Positions 1 to 35,303 of a DNA stretch of 47,036 bases are shown here, piece by piece. Numbering within the stretch: position 1 is the stretch's first letter; the number at the start of each line of letters is the position of its first letter. Under the pieces are notes generated by a model. The model had not been told where the DNA came from and ran no database searches. It worked only from the letters and a program-made list of their open reading frames with translations. Source of the DNA: a bacterium (GTDB lineage Bacteria; Sysuimicrobiota; Sysuimicrobiia; Sysuimicrobiales; Segetimicrobiaceae); assembly GCA_035691305.1 (NCBI GenBank), contig DASSJF010000008.1, forward strand, positions 1-47,036, given 5' to 3'. The translations under genes and the position numbers were made by a program.

Positions 1-276
1 CCGCGGGTAGTCCGGCTGAGCGGCCGCGAGCGGCTCGAAGAGGTGAGAAAAATTCTCGCCGAGCGCGGCTTCATGCCGGTGCTAACCTCGGAAGCCGGCG
101 AGCAGCTGCTGCGCGAGCACAACTGTCCGGTGATGCGCCTCGCGGTCAAGCACGCCGAAGTGTGCGACATGGTGCACCGGTGGCTCGAGTCGCTGATCGG
201 GGGGCGCCTCACGCGCGTTCGCTGCATGCGGCGCGGCGAGCCGTTTTCTGAATACCGGATCGGTAACCCTACGTAG
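1..276 (+). CDS. SufR-like winged-helix regulator, C-terminal part (cut by window edge)
   Basis: The frame is open from base 1 to TAG at 274-276, so the start and the DNA-binding part lie outside the window. What remains resembles the C-terminal sensor domain of SufR-like DeoR/ArsR-type regulators: a V-R-x-I-L-A-E-R-G-F helix, then NCPV, a H-A-E-V-C segment about 14 residues later, and a terminal G-E-P-F-S-E-Y-R-I strand. In SufR, cysteines in these positions hold an iron-sulfur cluster. Here the first two are kept, the usual last one (GDxxCxF) is Ser, and another Cys sits nine residues earlier, so cluster binding is uncertain. The GTG at 43 is internal, since the homologous sequence continues upstream of it. 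Confidence 0.7.
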   Translation, partial: PRVVRLSGRERLEEVRKILAERGFMPVLTSEAGEQLLREHNCPVMRLAVKHAEVCDMVHRWLESLIGGRLTRVRCMRRGEPFSEYRIGNPT

Positions 277-338
277 CCGGCCTACATCCCAGACCACACG
301 TGGGCATGTCAATACCCGCGCGCGAGAACGGAAGGGGC

Positions 339-344
339 TATAAT
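339..344 (+). promoter_or_regulatory. Probable -10 box of the tRNA-Gly promoter
   Basis: A perfect TATAAT lies 31 bases before the first tRNA base, the right distance for a short 5' leader. No good -35 box is visible 16-18 bases upstream, where the sequence is a CG repeat. Confidence 0.5.
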
Positions 345-375
345 AGGAAGTGTCGTAGACCGGCTCTATAGGCGA

Positions 376-450
376 GCGGGAATAGCTCAGTGGTAGAGCA
401 TCTGCTTCCCAAGCAGAGGGTCGTGGGTTCGAATCCCATTTCCCGCTCCA
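376..450 (+). tRNA. tRNA-Gly(CCC)
   Basis: A complete cloverleaf can be folded by eye. The acceptor arm is GCGGGAA/TTCCCGC. The D arm is GCTC/GAGC. The anticodon stem TCTGC/GCAGA encloses loop TTCCCAA, giving anticodon CCC, which reads the glycine codon GGG. The T arm is GTGGG/CCCAT around TTCGAAT. The discriminator base is T and the CCA end is encoded at 448-450. The recombinase reading frame begins directly after it and runs open back through its 3' half, which marks this gene as the likely integration site. Confidence 0.96.
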
Positions 451-454
451 GCCC

Positions 455-1396
455 AATAAAATCAAGGGTTCTAGCGATTCTGCGTCGCCAGAACAGCCAG
501 AAAAAGCAGACGCTCAGGCGTGGTCAGATGTTCAGCAATCTTTCTTACTGACTAGGCAGGTCGCAAACTGCTCCCGTCAAACAGTCGCAATCTACAAGGC
601 TAACCTCAGCCGGCTCCAACGGGAAACTGGCGTAACCGTGCTGGCTGACGTTACGCCTCTTGTCGTTCAGAAGTACCTAACTGCTCTGCAAACTCGGATG
701 AAGGCTGTCTCCGTCCACCAGCACTATCGCTGCCATCGCGCCTTCTTCGGCTGGTGCGTCGAAACCGGACTGCTCACTGAGGCACCGACCAGGGGCATCA
801 AAATGCGGTGCCCCAAGACTCTCCCGAGGGTCCCCGAAGACGACACAATCGGACGGCTCCTCGCGGCCTGTGACGAGACCTTCGAAGGCCGTAGGAACCG
901 CGCCTTAGTCTCTCTTCTCGCCGACTCCGGTCTACGAATCAGTGAGACATTGAGACTGAGGATCGAAGACGTAAACTTCAACGCCCGAACCCTGTCGGTG
1001 CGCGGTGGCAAGGGTCAGACGGATGGTGTTGGTTTCTTCGGTGCAGAGACGGCCCAGGTTGTGCGCTCGTGGCTTGGAAGCCGTACGGATGCGATGCTTG
1101 AGGACTTCCTGTTCTGCGACTAGCAGGGGCGGGCACTCAGCCGTTCCCACGGGCCCCACATCCTCCACCGTCTTTCCGTTCGTGCTAGCCTGAGCCGGAA
1201 GGTTGGTCCCCACGCACTCAGACATTACGCCGCTACGTCGATACTGAAACAGACGGGGGACTTGGAACTGGTCAGGCAAGTCTTGCGCCACGAAAGCCTC
1301 GCGATGGCCCTTCGTTATGCTCATCTAGCGAAGCCGGACGTGAGTCGGAAATTCAGGAGGGCCAGTCCGCTCGACAACCTGAGAGCGGGCCGCTGA
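455..1396 (+). pseudogene. Tyrosine recombinase (integrase) with in-frame TAG at 1121-1123 and no normal start codon
   Basis: One frame runs from the tRNA 3' end to TGA at 1394-1396, broken only by TAG at 1121. The first half has a SAM-like core-binding domain (from about 530) and the start of the catalytic domain with Arg in SGLRISETLRLR and Lys in RGGKGQTD. Past the TAG, in the same frame, follow PHALRH (His and Arg), LRHES (His) and RYAHL (nucleophile Tyr), so all six catalytic residues are encoded. There is no ATG, GTG or TTG in frame between the stop inside the tRNA (383-385) and GTG 638, which would lose the first helix of the core-binding domain. It is either a decayed integrase or one whose start was separated by integration. 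The TAG is followed by CAG. Confidence 0.85.
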
Positions 1397-1419
1397 TAAG
1401 GAATCTGAACGGGTTGCGG

Positions 1420-1450
1420 GGGCCGGGGGTTTTCCGGCCCTCTATCTATC
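1420..1450 (+). terminator. Rho-independent terminator after the recombinase
   Basis: GGGCCGG (1420-1426) pairs with CCGGCCC (1434-1440) around a GGGTTTT loop, followed by the pyrimidine-rich TCTATCTATCC. It lies 24 bases after the recombinase stop. Confidence 0.7.
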
Positions 1451-1641
1451 CTTGCCAGCACCCATAAGAGCAAAGGGGACTTCGGTAGGAACTCTAGACA
1501 CCAATGAGGAACGATGTGCCGCTGGGTTTTCCAGAATTGCCTATTTCAATCGTTTCTTGTTCGTAGCGTTGTCCCACACTTGTTGTCGTCCGCAGCCGCT
1601 CCTGAACACGACTGGTCCGAATAGAATCGAGGGGGGAGTCT

Positions 1642-2745
1642 ATGGGCTTGATACGTGGTTTGGTTCAGCACGTCTCTGCCCTTGTTTCCGCAAAACCTAG
1701 TCGATGCCGCGAGCATATTGGTATGGCGCGGTGGCTCAAGACCGGTGCTCTGTTGCTCGCTTCACTAGGTATCGCTTTTGCTCTTATCGTTCCGTCTGCC
1801 GCGTTGGGAACCATTACATCTTTTAGTTGCGGCCAGGTCTTCGGCGTCAATGGAACCTCCCCGACGTATTCTATTGTGGGGTTTCAAGATGTAAGCAGGA
1901 CCTACCTCGGATTCAAGGCGAACGTCGCCTTCATTACGAGTTCCTGTGGAAATAATGTCAGCATACCAGGCGCCACCTCAGTGTTTCCGCAGGCCATTAG
2001 CCCGGACGGTTTTATGACCGGCATTTATGAGGCCTCAGATACAACGCGGCCTGCTTTTGTGATGGACCCGCAAGGGAATGTCCTTTCCTTCAAGGCGGCT
2101 AACCTTTCCGGCGACGCCAACGCCTATGGCCAGCATCCAAACGGAATTACCGTCTCAACTGGCGGCATCGCGTGGGTGGTGGGATCCTACCTCACCAACA
2201 AAGGAAAGACATCGCACTCCTTCGCCGTCCAAGTCAATACCAGCGCTAGTCCGACGATCGTCAGCGGGAGTTGGATTTCGTTCGACATTTCAGTGGCCGG
2301 GAGCGGCACTGCCAGAGGCGTGGATGGCGCCGACCCCGCTAGTGTAATCGTGGGTTCTTATCCGGATGCGAGTGGAAAAGATCAAGGGTTTGTGCTCAAC
2401 CTCGCTGACCTGAAGGCGGCGAGACAGGCTGCGCCGCAGGTGACGGTCATACCGCTCAGTTCTGTGGCTACCCTGACCTGTTCCGGCGCGATTGGCGGCC
2501 GTATTCATGGCATCAGCGACGGTGGTCGGATCGTCGGGGTAGCCTTCACGGGCACTGTGTCAGGGTACGCTTATTGGGTGGATGGCGGCCCCTGGACTAA
2601 AGGTTCAGTCAACCACCCGGTCTGCAACCAAATCCCCGTTCCGGGCGCGTCGAAGGGCGGCGAGACATGGGCGTCCGGAGTTACCTCGGATGGCGTGTAT
2701 ATCGTCGGACAGGGCGGCAGCGCAGACTGGGTCTATCAGCCATAG
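1642..2745 (+). CDS. Exported HAF-repeat-like protein of unknown function
   Basis: 367 residues. A G-rich ribosome binding site (GGGGGGAG, 1631-1638) precedes ATG 1642. A second ATG at 1723 would start directly at a classical signal peptide (positive residues, then LLLASLGIAFALIVPSAALG), so the true start may be 1723. The mature part holds spaced repeats of the HAF type: AISPDGFMTGIY, GVDGADPASVIVGSY, GISDGGRIVGVAF and GVTSDGVYIVGQ. Such repeats form beta-propeller-like extracellular domains of unknown role. Four or more cysteines could form disulfides outside the cell. Codons here are visibly richer in A and T than in the neighbouring genes, which fits acquisition with the recombinase. Its stop lies 9 bases from that of the convergent glycosyltransferase gene. 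Confidence 0.7.
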   Translation: MGLIRGLVQHVSALVSAKPSRCREHIGMARWLKTGALLLASLGIAFALIVPSAALGTITSFSCGQVFGVNGTSPTYSIVGFQDVSRTYLGFKANVAFITSSCGNNVSIPGATSVFPQAISPDGFMTGIYEASDTTRPAFVMDPQGNVLSFKAANLSGDANAYGQHPNGITVSTGGIAWVVGSYLTNKGKTSHSFAVQVNTSASPTIVSGSWISFDISVAGSGTARGVDGADPASVIVGSYPDASGKDQGFVLNLADLKAARQAAPQVTVIPLSSVATLTCSGAIGGRIHGISDGGRIVGVAFTGTVSGYAYWVDGGPWTKGSVNHPVCNQIPVPGASKGGETWASGVTSDGVYIVGQGGSADWVYQP

Positions 2746-2754
2746 AGTCCTAGA

Positions 2755-3912
2755 CTAAACTAAGTCTGTGACGGTATCCGTACGCCGCGCCAGTGGGGCG
2801 CCGTGCCGGATTCCGGCCAGGCCCCGAGCCACGTCGCCGACAGCGGCGTGGCTGCTCCTCCGTGCGCCGCGTCCCGCGTGGCCTAGCTTATCTGCGACGA
2901 CGGTGCGGTATGCGGTTTCGTACATTTCGGCCATACGGCGCGCAGAAAAGTGGTTCTCCACATGGGTCCGGCAGGCGGCCCGGGAGAGGTTGTCTATTCT
3001 CTGGACCGCGTCGATCATTTCTGCCTGCGAGCGACAGACAAATCCTGTTTGACCGTGGACCACGACCTCCGGCACGGACCCAAGGTTCATGGCGATCACC
3101 GGCGTGCCGCAGGCCATCGCTTCGATCATCGTCATCCCAAACGGCTCCGGCCAGTCGATCGGGAAGAGATAGGCAAACGCGTTGCCCAGAAACTCGTCCT
3201 TTTGCATTTCGTCGATTTCGCCGATATATTCCACCCGGGGATCGCATAGCATCGGTTTGATCTTCGCCTTGAAGTACTCGTCGTCGACCGGGTCGACTTT
3301 TGCGGCGATCCGAAGCGGCATATCCACGGCCTGGGCAATTTTGATCGCCCGGTCGACACCCTTCTCCGGCGAAATCCGTCCTAAGAAAGCAAGGTAGCCG
3401 CCTGAGCCCTGCCGTAACGTGAAGTGTCTCAGGTCGATCCCGTTATAGACGGTCGCCGCCCACCGAGCATGGCGAATGGGGCGTCGCTGAGCGTTACTGA
3501 TCGACACGAGGTACTGGTCGGAAAACTCCGCGTACACGTCCTGGAGCTCCGCGAGATCGAGGCGCCCGTGGAGCGTTGTGACCATCGGCGTCCGGATCTG
3601 GCGGGCCGTCGGCATGGCGAGGTAATCAAGATGATTGTGAATGATGTCAAAGTCCCGTGCCCGCGCGCTGACCTTTCCCAACTCGATCATCGTATATGCG
3701 ACGTGATTCCGCATGTGGGGGTTCAGCCGCAGGCCCTCCGGACAGCATGCCACCAGCTCCGCAGATGTCTCTGAATCCCCGCTCGCAAAGAGCACGACGT
3801 CATGGCCTCGCCGTACGAGCTCCTCCGTTAGGCCGGAGACGACACGCTCAGTGCCGCCATAGAACCGCGGCGGCACACTTTCAGCAAGTGGGGCAACCTG
3901 AGCAATCTTCAT
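2755..3912 (-). CDS. Family 4 glycosyltransferase
   Basis: 385 residues from ATG 3912, chosen because GAGGAG lies 7 bases before it and the protein then begins MKIAQVAPLAE, the usual GT4 start; longer in-frame starts add Arg-rich sequence without homology. The N-terminal Rossmann half has PPRFYGGTERVVSGLTEEL (the glycine-rich acceptor-side loop). The C-terminal half has FLGRISPEKGVDRAI and the nucleotide-sugar signature EPFGMTMIEAMACGTPVIA with the E-x7-E pair. The enzyme transfers a sugar from a nucleotide donor with retention of configuration; the acceptor is unknown. The last 40 residues are divergent. A debranching-type enzyme gene lies nearby, so a role in glucan, trehalose-like or surface polysaccharide metabolism is possible but unproven. 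Confidence 0.88.
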   Translation of the reverse strand: MKIAQVAPLAESVPPRFYGGTERVVSGLTEELVRRGHDVVLFASGDSETSAELVACCPEGLRLNPHMRNHVAYTMIELGKVSARARDFDIIHNHLDYLAMPTARQIRTPMVTTLHGRLDLAELQDVYAEFSDQYLVSISNAQRRPIRHARWAATVYNGIDLRHFTLRQGSGGYLAFLGRISPEKGVDRAIKIAQAVDMPLRIAAKVDPVDDEYFKAKIKPMLCDPRVEYIGEIDEMQKDEFLGNAFAYLFPIDWPEPFGMTMIEAMACGTPVIAMNLGSVPEVVVHGQTGFVCRSQAEMIDAVQRIDNLSRAACRTHVENHFSARRMAEMYETAYRTVVADKLGHAGRGARRSSHAAVGDVARGLAGIRHGAPLARRTDTVTDLV

Positions 3913-33549: not shown

Positions 33550-34401
33550 ATGCACGCATCCGCGGCGGGCACGGTCGTCATCGGCGGCGATCTGCGCGTC
33601 GCGCGGCTCGGTTTCGGGGCGCTGCGGATCCTCGGCCGCGGAGGGCTCGGCCCGCCGCGCGATCGGGCCCGGGCGCTCGGGGTGCTGCGGCGCGCGGTGG
33701 ATCTCGGTGTCACGCTCATCGATACCGCCGACTCGTACGGTCCCGGCGTCTCGGAAGAATTGATCGCGGAAGCCCTCAACCCGTACCCGGCCGGACTCGT
33801 CATCGCGACGAAAGGCGGCTTCACCAGGCCTGGAGGCGCGTGGATCGCGCGCGGGCGGCCGGCGCACCTCCGCGAGGCGCTCGAAGGGAGCCTCCGCCGG
33901 CTGCGCGTCGAGCGGATCGACCTCTATCAACTGCACACCGTCGACCCCAAGGTGCCGATAGAAGAGTCGGTGGGGACGATCGTCGAGATGCAGGCGCAGG
34001 GCAAGATCCGGCACATCGGCGTCTCCAACGTCTCCACCGAAGAACTGCGGAAGGCGCAGTCCGTCGCGCGGATCGTCTCGGTCCAGAACGAGTACAGCCT
34101 CGCCGAGCGCGAGTCGGACGGCGTGCTGGACGTGTGCGCGCGAGAAGGGCTCGCGTTTCTCCCGTGGGCGCCGCTCGCCGGCGCGCGGCGCGCCGCAAAG
34201 AAGCTCACGGCCGTGCTCCACAAGGTCGCCGCGGCGCACCGCGCCACGCCCTGGCAAGTCTCGCTGGCGTGGCTGCTGCACCGCTCCCCGGCCGTGGTGC
34301 CGATCCCCGGCACGGGATCGCCCGAGCATTTGGAGGAGAACCTTGCCGCGGCGGACCTGCGCCTCTCGGACGACGAATACCAGTCTCTCACCGAACTCTG
34401 A
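33550..34401 (+). CDS. Aldo/keto reductase
   Basis: 283 residues. The catalytic tetrad is visible: Asp and Tyr in LIDTADSYGPGV, Lys in VIATKGGF, and His in LYQLHTVDP. The C-terminal NADP-binding signature VPIPGTGSPEHLEENLAA is present. It reduces aldehydes or ketones with NAD(P)H in a TIM barrel; the substrate is unknown. Its stop overlaps the start of the next gene by one base (TGATG), so the reductase and the serine hydrolase are co-translated. Confidence 0.93.
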   Translation: MHASAAGTVVIGGDLRVARLGFGALRILGRGGLGPPRDRARALGVLRRAVDLGVTLIDTADSYGPGVSEELIAEALNPYPAGLVIATKGGFTRPGGAWIARGRPAHLREALEGSLRRLRVERIDLYQLHTVDPKVPIEESVGTIVEMQAQGKIRHIGVSNVSTEELRKAQSVARIVSVQNEYSLAERESDGVLDVCAREGLAFLPWAPLAGARRAAKKLTAVLHKVAAAHRATPWQVSLAWLLHRSPAVVPIPGTGSPEHLEENLAAADLRLSDDEYQSLTEL

Positions 34402-35303
34402 TGGAAGGCGGTGTTTCCGACGTGATCACGGAGCGCGCGCGGCTCGCGTCCTCGCTGAACGCCTTATGCGATGCGCAGCCCTTCGAGACCGGCTGGTATC
34501 TCCGCGACCTGCGCCGGGGCGTCTCGGCGGACCGCCGCGGCAGCGTCGTGGTGCCGTCGGCGAGTACGCGAAAAATCGCGATCTTGATGACCGCGCTCGG
34601 CGACGTGCACACGGGGCGGCTGTCGCTCGACCGGCGCGTCGCGATCGAGGCGCGCTACCAGATCAGCGACAGCGGCTGCATGCAGCACTTCCGGCCGGGG
34701 TCCACCCTCACGCTGCACGACTTTCTCGTCATGATGATCATCGTCAGCGACAACGTCGCGACCGGCACGGTGGCCGACCTGGTCGGCCTGGATGCGATCA
34801 ACGCGTTCTGCCGGTCGATCGGCATGACCGGTACGACGCACCGCGCGGGCATCCCGCAAGAGAACTACCCGCTCATGCCGCCCGGCGAAGTGCCGCCGCA
34901 CGACGTTAACCGCCTGAACGCCACGACGCCGGCCGACGTCGGCCATCTGCTGGAAGCGGTCTTGAAGGGCGGCGACGATGCCGACGCGGCGGCGCGGCTC
35001 GGCGTCACGCCGGACCTCTGCCGCTACGCCCTCGACATCCTGAGCTGGCAGAACCTGACGGCGCGCCTCCCTTCCTGGCTCCCCACCGGCACGAAGGTGG
35101 CCCACAAGACCGGCACCGGCGGCAACGCGATCAACGACGCCGGCATCATCTTCCAGAACGGGCGGCCGCTGTTCGTGCTCACGGTCTACACGTACCCCGT
35201 GCCGCGCGTACTGCGAAACGGCGAGCCGGGTAAGGCCGCGGCCACCGCGCACATCGGCCGGCTCAGCCGCGCCTGCTGGGACGCGCTCGCCGAGCCGGAG
35301 TAG
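34401..35303 (+). CDS. Class-A-beta-lactamase-like serine hydrolase
   Basis: 300 residues from ATG 34401, coupled to the reductase gene. Active-site motifs: S-T-R-K (Ser55, Lys58), S-D-N (116-118) and K-T-G (236-238), in the right order and spacing. NATTPADVGHLLEAVL matches the segment after the omega loop. The E-x-x-L-N motif that carries the deacylating glutamate of true class A enzymes is not seen between SDN and this segment, so it may be acylated by beta-lactams without turning them over, or act on another peptide or ester. No signal peptide is visible, which also argues against a classical secreted beta-lactamase. Confidence 0.85.
   Translation: MEGGVSDVITERARLASSLNALCDAQPFETGWYLRDLRRGVSADRRGSVVVPSASTRKIAILMTALGDVHTGRLSLDRRVAIEARYQISDSGCMQHFRPGSTLTLHDFLVMMIIVSDNVATGTVADLVGLDAINAFCRSIGMTGTTHRAGIPQENYPLMPPGEVPPHDVNRLNATTPADVGHLLEAVLKGGDDADAAARLGVTPDLCRYALDILSWQNLTARLPSWLPTGTKVAHKTGTGGNAINDAGIIFQNGRPLFVLTVYTYPVPRVLRNGEPGKAAATAHIGRLSRACWDALAEPE

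Follow-up and report, generated by a model that had tools for sequence, protein, structure and literature searches.

A start-less tyrosine integrase frame at a bacterial tRNA-Gly gene and the far-end start codons of its relatives

Introduction

Where is the start of an integrase gene whose reading frame emerges from a tRNA gene and meets no start codon before its first domain? Such a frame adjoins a tRNA-Gly gene in the window, by which we mean the whole stretch of bacterial DNA analysed here (47,036 nucleotides). A preliminary description of the locus proposed that the attachment (att) core lies within or just before the 5' end of the gene, with the start codon on the other side of the core, and that integration into the tRNA gene cuts the integrase off from its start. 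Here we follow this proposal through the window and its relatives in the same phylum. It is highly probable, judging from the sequences compared below, that the left end (attL) of an integrative element survives in the window in decayed form, and that the tyrosine integrase gene of this element carried its own att site near the 5' end, so that insertion separated it from its start.

Results

The integrase frame of the window

The recombinase frame opens at position 386, right after a TAG in the 5' part of the tRNA gene, and spans the 3' half of the tRNA into the integrase, where the first in-frame ATG, GTG or TTG is GTG 638. The core-binding domain (PF13495) maps to about 536–766 and the catalytic domain (PF00589) to about 842–1333. 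The former thus begins upstream of 638, as had been supposed, and since GTG 638 falls within this domain, the true start is unlikely to lie there. The frame had also been described as open from inside the tRNA-Gly 3' half into the integrase (455–1396). It is indeed open from 386 and start-less before 638, but the TAG at 1121–1123 interrupts it, so that it does not run open to 1396. This stop ends the protein ahead of the HxxR and tyrosine catalytic motifs, and the window copy, as assembled, is dead. When the TAG is read as X, the protein matches PF00589 with an E-value of 1.4e-31, which places it among the tyrosine recombinases, while its scores against the NCBIfam equivalog cut-offs are 154 versus 335 bits for XerC and 133 versus 330 for XerD. 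An open frame in the 3' half of a tRNA gene means little when taken alone; its recurrence among relatives exceeds chance. Elsewhere in the window, an ORF at 33840–35303 is weakly similar to class A beta-lactamases (76 bits; cut-off 200).

Table 1. Features of the tRNA-Gly locus, in window coordinates
Feature	Position	Strand	Remarks
tRNA-Gly(CCC), integration target	376..450	+	ARAGORN
Start-less open integrase frame: tRNA-encoded part, linker, core-binding domain, start of catalytic domain	386..1120	+	
Candidate att core, equal to the tRNA 3' half	402..450	+	by analogy with the exact repeats of four relatives, which start at tRNA positions 13–27
Element remnant lacking a right end	455..2743	+	sister contig C72 has 283 unrelated nt in its place
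Tentative core-proximal left-arm site atcaagggttctagcga	461..477	+	weak; comparable to the GGGTTTCAG repeats in both arms of G016
Left-arm motif AAAGCAGACGCTCAGGC	503..519	+	77 nt after core GGTTCGA; probable arm-type integrase site
In-frame TAG killing the window integrase copy	1121..1123	+	
Remaining integrase frame with HxxR and Tyr motifs	1124..1396	+	stop TGA 1394–1396
367-aa ORF of unknown family within the inserted segment	1642..2745	+	

A sister contig and the missing right end

A second contig of the same draft genome (C72) matches window positions 1–454 at 97% and 2744–2955 at 96%, with 283 unrelated nucleotides in between. Because the flanks match while the middle differs, window 455–2743 is an inserted or replaced segment that starts at the 3' end of the tRNA. 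The contig (G000:C72, L024:5384-6035) presents an alternative tRNA-Gly allele to window 1–2955, with an epimerase-like fragment in place of the integrase, and the occurrence of both alleles in one draft genome suggests a strain mixture in the assembly. The two alleles also differ in the T-arm, where the window has T424 and A438 (GTGGG/CCCAT) and C72 has C and G (GCGGG/CCCGT), two changes that pair with each other. The occupied locus of G002 carries the window-type T/A pair, and the unoccupied locus of G001 carries C/G. This pattern fits the idea that the element would supply its own tRNA 3' half.

The 367-aa ORF of the inserted segment has no match in Pfam or PHROG. Three right-arm searches found no right end of the element in its own genome, and the window contains no second copy of the att core; the right end thus appears to be lost. 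Given this loss and the dead integrase, we regard the window as a fossil of a split-integrase system, and the agreement between start and integrase frame described below comes from its relatives. The same genome contains a second start-less family member at a tRNA-Ala gene, open to the contig end (G000:C17, L025).

Homologous integrases at other tRNA genes

About ten homologous XerC-like integrases of the same bacterial phylum lie directly on tRNA-Gly, -Ala, -Pro or -Arg genes, with the integrase frame open into the tRNA; the targets are Gly(CCC), Ala(TGC), Pro(GGG, TGG) and Arg(CCG, TCT). In most of them, no start codon separates the tRNA from the core-binding domain; an in-frame start is absent from this interval in the window, L032, L033, L079, L025, L027 and L074. 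Start-less copies that are intact occur at Ala, Pro and Arg tRNAs (L032, L076, L078 and L079), and in all four the PF00589 domain is complete with its conserved Arg, HxxR and Tyr. Just ahead of its domain, L078 carries a TTG in frame that could act as a weak start. The window, L074, L027, L084 and L038 are decayed copies, and a tRNA-Gly element of genome G004 (G004:C34) has lost its integrase and has a broken right-end start frame as well. On the other hand, in L026, L080, L302 and L082 an ordinary ATG, preceded by a Shine-Dalgarno sequence, stands behind the tRNA site, and the split is therefore not universal in the family. About three changes of the start-less trait are needed on a tree that is itself weakly resolved, and the trait has been lost or gained more than once.

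Many copies and relics reside at different tRNAs within the single genome G004 (contigs C12, C34, C40, C51 and C58), which makes them useful for the study of decay and of rescue in trans. Two elements have a second integrase of the same family, antisense and close to the right end, which begins with ATG and has no adjoining tRNA (L074:8617-9645, minus strand; L035:3446-4318, minus strand). Its Shine-Dalgarno sequence is strong in L074 only, and these antisense genes may be the working enzymes of their elements. Replication genes are carried aboard, as in integrative plasmids: a DnaB-like helicase in G022 and a Prim-Pol in G014. The hosts are bacterial, as bacterial DnaA (TIGR00362) is present in 39 of 43 genomes of the phylum that were examined, the window's genome included. 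Outside this group, a scan of genome contigs, the output of which may leave out near records, returned only distant recombinases with at most 38% identity; IMG/VR gave four matches only (28–33%), and plasmid and phage records contained distant relatives only.

The far ends carry a start in the integrase frame

Both element ends were found in four relatives, on one contig in G014 and G022 and on two contigs of the draft genomes in G016 and G001. The ends share exact repeats of 49 nt (G014), 124 nt (G022), 66 nt (G016) and 63 nt (G001), which begin at tRNA positions 13–27. The second tRNA copy, at the far end, is closely preceded by a Shine-Dalgarno sequence (−10 to −13 kcal/mol) and an ATG or GTG, from which the frame of the integrase reads through the core. 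In G014, the copy of the tRNA-Ala 3' part lies 8.2 kb downstream and is immediately preceded by aaggaggtggacgcgATG in the integrase frame; the integrase itself has two stops. In G022, at a tRNA-Arg gene, the repeat is 6.7 kb away, and a GTG at position 76181 of the contig, preceded by AGGAGG, is the start. The far-end start is likewise in the integrase frame in G016 (tRNA-Arg) and G001 (tRNA-Pro). When the two parts are joined, the genes of G022 (348 aa) and G016 (355 aa) run without stops. A fifth locus has the joined form, in which a single piece contains the start, the core and a decayed integrase (G004:C58 / L038), and G004:C12 is a further right end of the same type. Thus, the preliminary description was borne out in these relatives: a start lies on the other side of the core and reads through it in the frame of the integrase.

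The four end pairs use all three tRNA reading frames. The integrase core phases are 0, 2, 1, 0 and 1, and the far-end start matches the phase in all five testable cases. Across the six right ends, G004:C58 and C12 included, the integrase frame is the only one with a Shine-Dalgarno sequence and a start open to the core. For the five ends with a known integrase frame, shuffling that preserved dinucleotides gave probabilities of 0.045–0.22 each, with a product of about 5e-5. As the phase differs between elements, the match between start and integrase must have been re-adjusted.

The right-hand repeat of G022 (G022:C6:76243-76366) continues for 69 nt beyond the tRNA and covers the left-arm site, which looks as though an earlier element of this kind had lain behind it (tandem accretion). 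Hexamers resembling TTACAAT or TGATAAT lie shortly ahead of the right-end start in L035 and L198, and the integrase promoter may also reside at the far end. The right end of L032 was not found; a candidate attR for it (L089, 15372) shares the T-arm only and has no in-frame Shine-Dalgarno start at the usual distance, and was left out for that reason. A second core copy directly behind the L079 integrase was set aside because of an in-frame stop, and a match in G009 to a right arm was taken as chance.

Arm sites and the linker

In each of the six right ends, a 17-bp motif with the consensus AAAGCAGnnGCTCACCC precedes the core by exactly 88 nt; in the left ends it follows the core at 75–90 nt. 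Within one element, the arm copies agree also at positions where they deviate from the consensus (12/12 in G022, AAGCCAAGGTTC; 12/12 in G001, CACTCAGGTGCT). The motif is probably an arm-type integrase site. The reading frame that crosses the motif varies among the right arms, so the motif is conserved at the DNA level. A motif-like match upstream of the tRNA-Ala in L032 (4336) was taken as chance. Changes in the linker are spread evenly over the codon positions, with no constraint of the protein type, and the open frame alone is kept; linker identity is therefore not evidence for translation. An attP carried inside the gene probably entails the N-terminal tail as a tolerated by-product.

Alternative explanations

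The integrase could be a mere 5'-truncated or decayed pseudogene beside a tRNA, in which the absent start has no meaning. The window copy, with its in-frame TAG and no right end, and the several broken relatives are what one would then expect, and for the present state of this single copy the description holds. As an account of the family it is very unlikely, because the same start-less layout recurs in the four intact copies that sit at tRNAs for Ala, Pro and Arg, and the paired ends, with an in-frame far-end start wherever this can be examined, refute it. We give the lowest probability of all to the idea that the start at the right end is that of a distinct small gene, agrees with the integrase frame by accident and adjoins an att site conserved only as DNA. 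The conservation of the linker and right arm is indeed of the DNA type. However, the agreement extends over five of five pairs and three tRNA phases, with no Shine-Dalgarno start in the other two frames, and the stubs left by integration are short (44–120 aa) and unrelated in sequence.

Translation from a cryptic start is unlikely too, though it deserves more weight. Transcripts from the tRNA promoter might be translated from a TTG or GTG in the tRNA or from a rare codon close to the domain, and integration would then alter only the N-terminus or the expression level, comparable to the promoter switch of ICEKp1 and ICEclc. An integrase gene driven by a tRNA promoter is documented (PMC13023037), an in-frame TTG or GTG exists inside the tRNA of L032, L033, L025 and L076 as does the TTG before the L078 domain, and the left linkers of L032 and L078 contain fairly strong anti-Shine-Dalgarno matches. 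By contrast, neither the tRNA nor the linker offers an in-frame start in the window, L079, L027 or L074, and most start-less linkers have no strong match (−4.3 in the window, −3.2 in L027).

Discussion

We therefore return to the integrase gene that is split at its own att site. In the circular form, the gene would be whole, with the ribosome-binding site and start, about 25–40 codons containing one arm site, and then the core, which comprises about 15–18 codons encoded by the tRNA 3' half. A linker of about 25 codons with the second arm site would follow, and finally the core-binding and catalytic domains. Recombination with the host tRNA gene would rebuild the tRNA and leave the ribosome-binding site, the start and the first 25–40 or so codons at the far end (attR), with the integrase body start-less behind the tRNA. 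Because the body would then have no start, integrase production should stop and the element should be locked in, and excision would need integrase from another copy or from a circular form. The circular form, the silencing and the rescue in trans are what we infer from the architecture of the ends.

In a wider sense, it is rather probable that one bacterial lineage of tyrosine integrases acquired self-disruption separately from those of Archaea. The att site and the 5' coding region would have been fused, each insertion would act as an off switch, the frame would have been re-adjusted for each new tRNA and reading frame, and some descendants may have escaped by a new start behind the site. If this is true, one-way integration would have evolved convergently in a bacterial phylum and in a different domain family from that of Archaea, and the persistence of self-disabling integrases becomes testable with complete elements. 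G022 is a ready test case, at a tRNA-Arg gene, with both ends on one contig, an intact joined gene of 348 aa and a DnaB-like helicase. For annotation, such integrases resemble truncated pseudogenes unless the far end is read. We found no bacterial precedent for a self-splitting integrase in the open literature, outside which many journals lie, and the bacterial split integrase is likely to be novel.

Among known systems, XerC and XerD are the families whose models come nearest to the catalytic and core-binding domains, but the scores are far under the equivalog cut-offs, and the present proteins are element-borne and target tRNA genes. ICEKp1 and ICEclc also have the integrase beside a tRNA and the expression signals of the circular form at the other end of the element (PMC13023037), whereas there the promoter alone is exchanged and the coding sequence retains a start of its own, at about 200 bp from the tRNA. 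In the integration-dependent immunity of mycobacteriophage BPs, attP likewise lies in a coding sequence and the product depends on integration (PMC4557955); unlike here, it is the repressor that loses a C-terminal tag and becomes active, and the integrase is unsplit.

In archaeal suicidal integrases, the split removes a sizeable N-terminal part. In the family described here, it takes only the ribosome-binding site, the start and the first 25–40 or so codons, and arm-like repeats flank the core. The archaeal SSV-type (type I) integrases include SSV1, pTN3 and pT26-2, in which frame changes around att are compensated, and a 2021 review places recombinases that disrupt their own gene exclusively in Archaea (PMC8371274). 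The likeness to SSV drawn in the preliminary description stands for the logic of the split. As in the archaeal class, the protein includes tRNA-encoded residues and integration splits the gene (PMC8371274); the recombination site lies in the integrase coding sequence in the four two-ended relatives and in the joined junction. The likeness does not extend to the host, which is bacterial by its DnaA, or to the protein family, as PF00589 and PF13495 are found here and PF16795 (Phage_integr_3, superfamily 25_02) is not. As the SSV-type domain is absent, the family appears to be a separate bacterial occurrence. The integrated fragments of the archaeal class are inactive and excision needs an intact copy in trans, and the same would hold for the bacterial elements.
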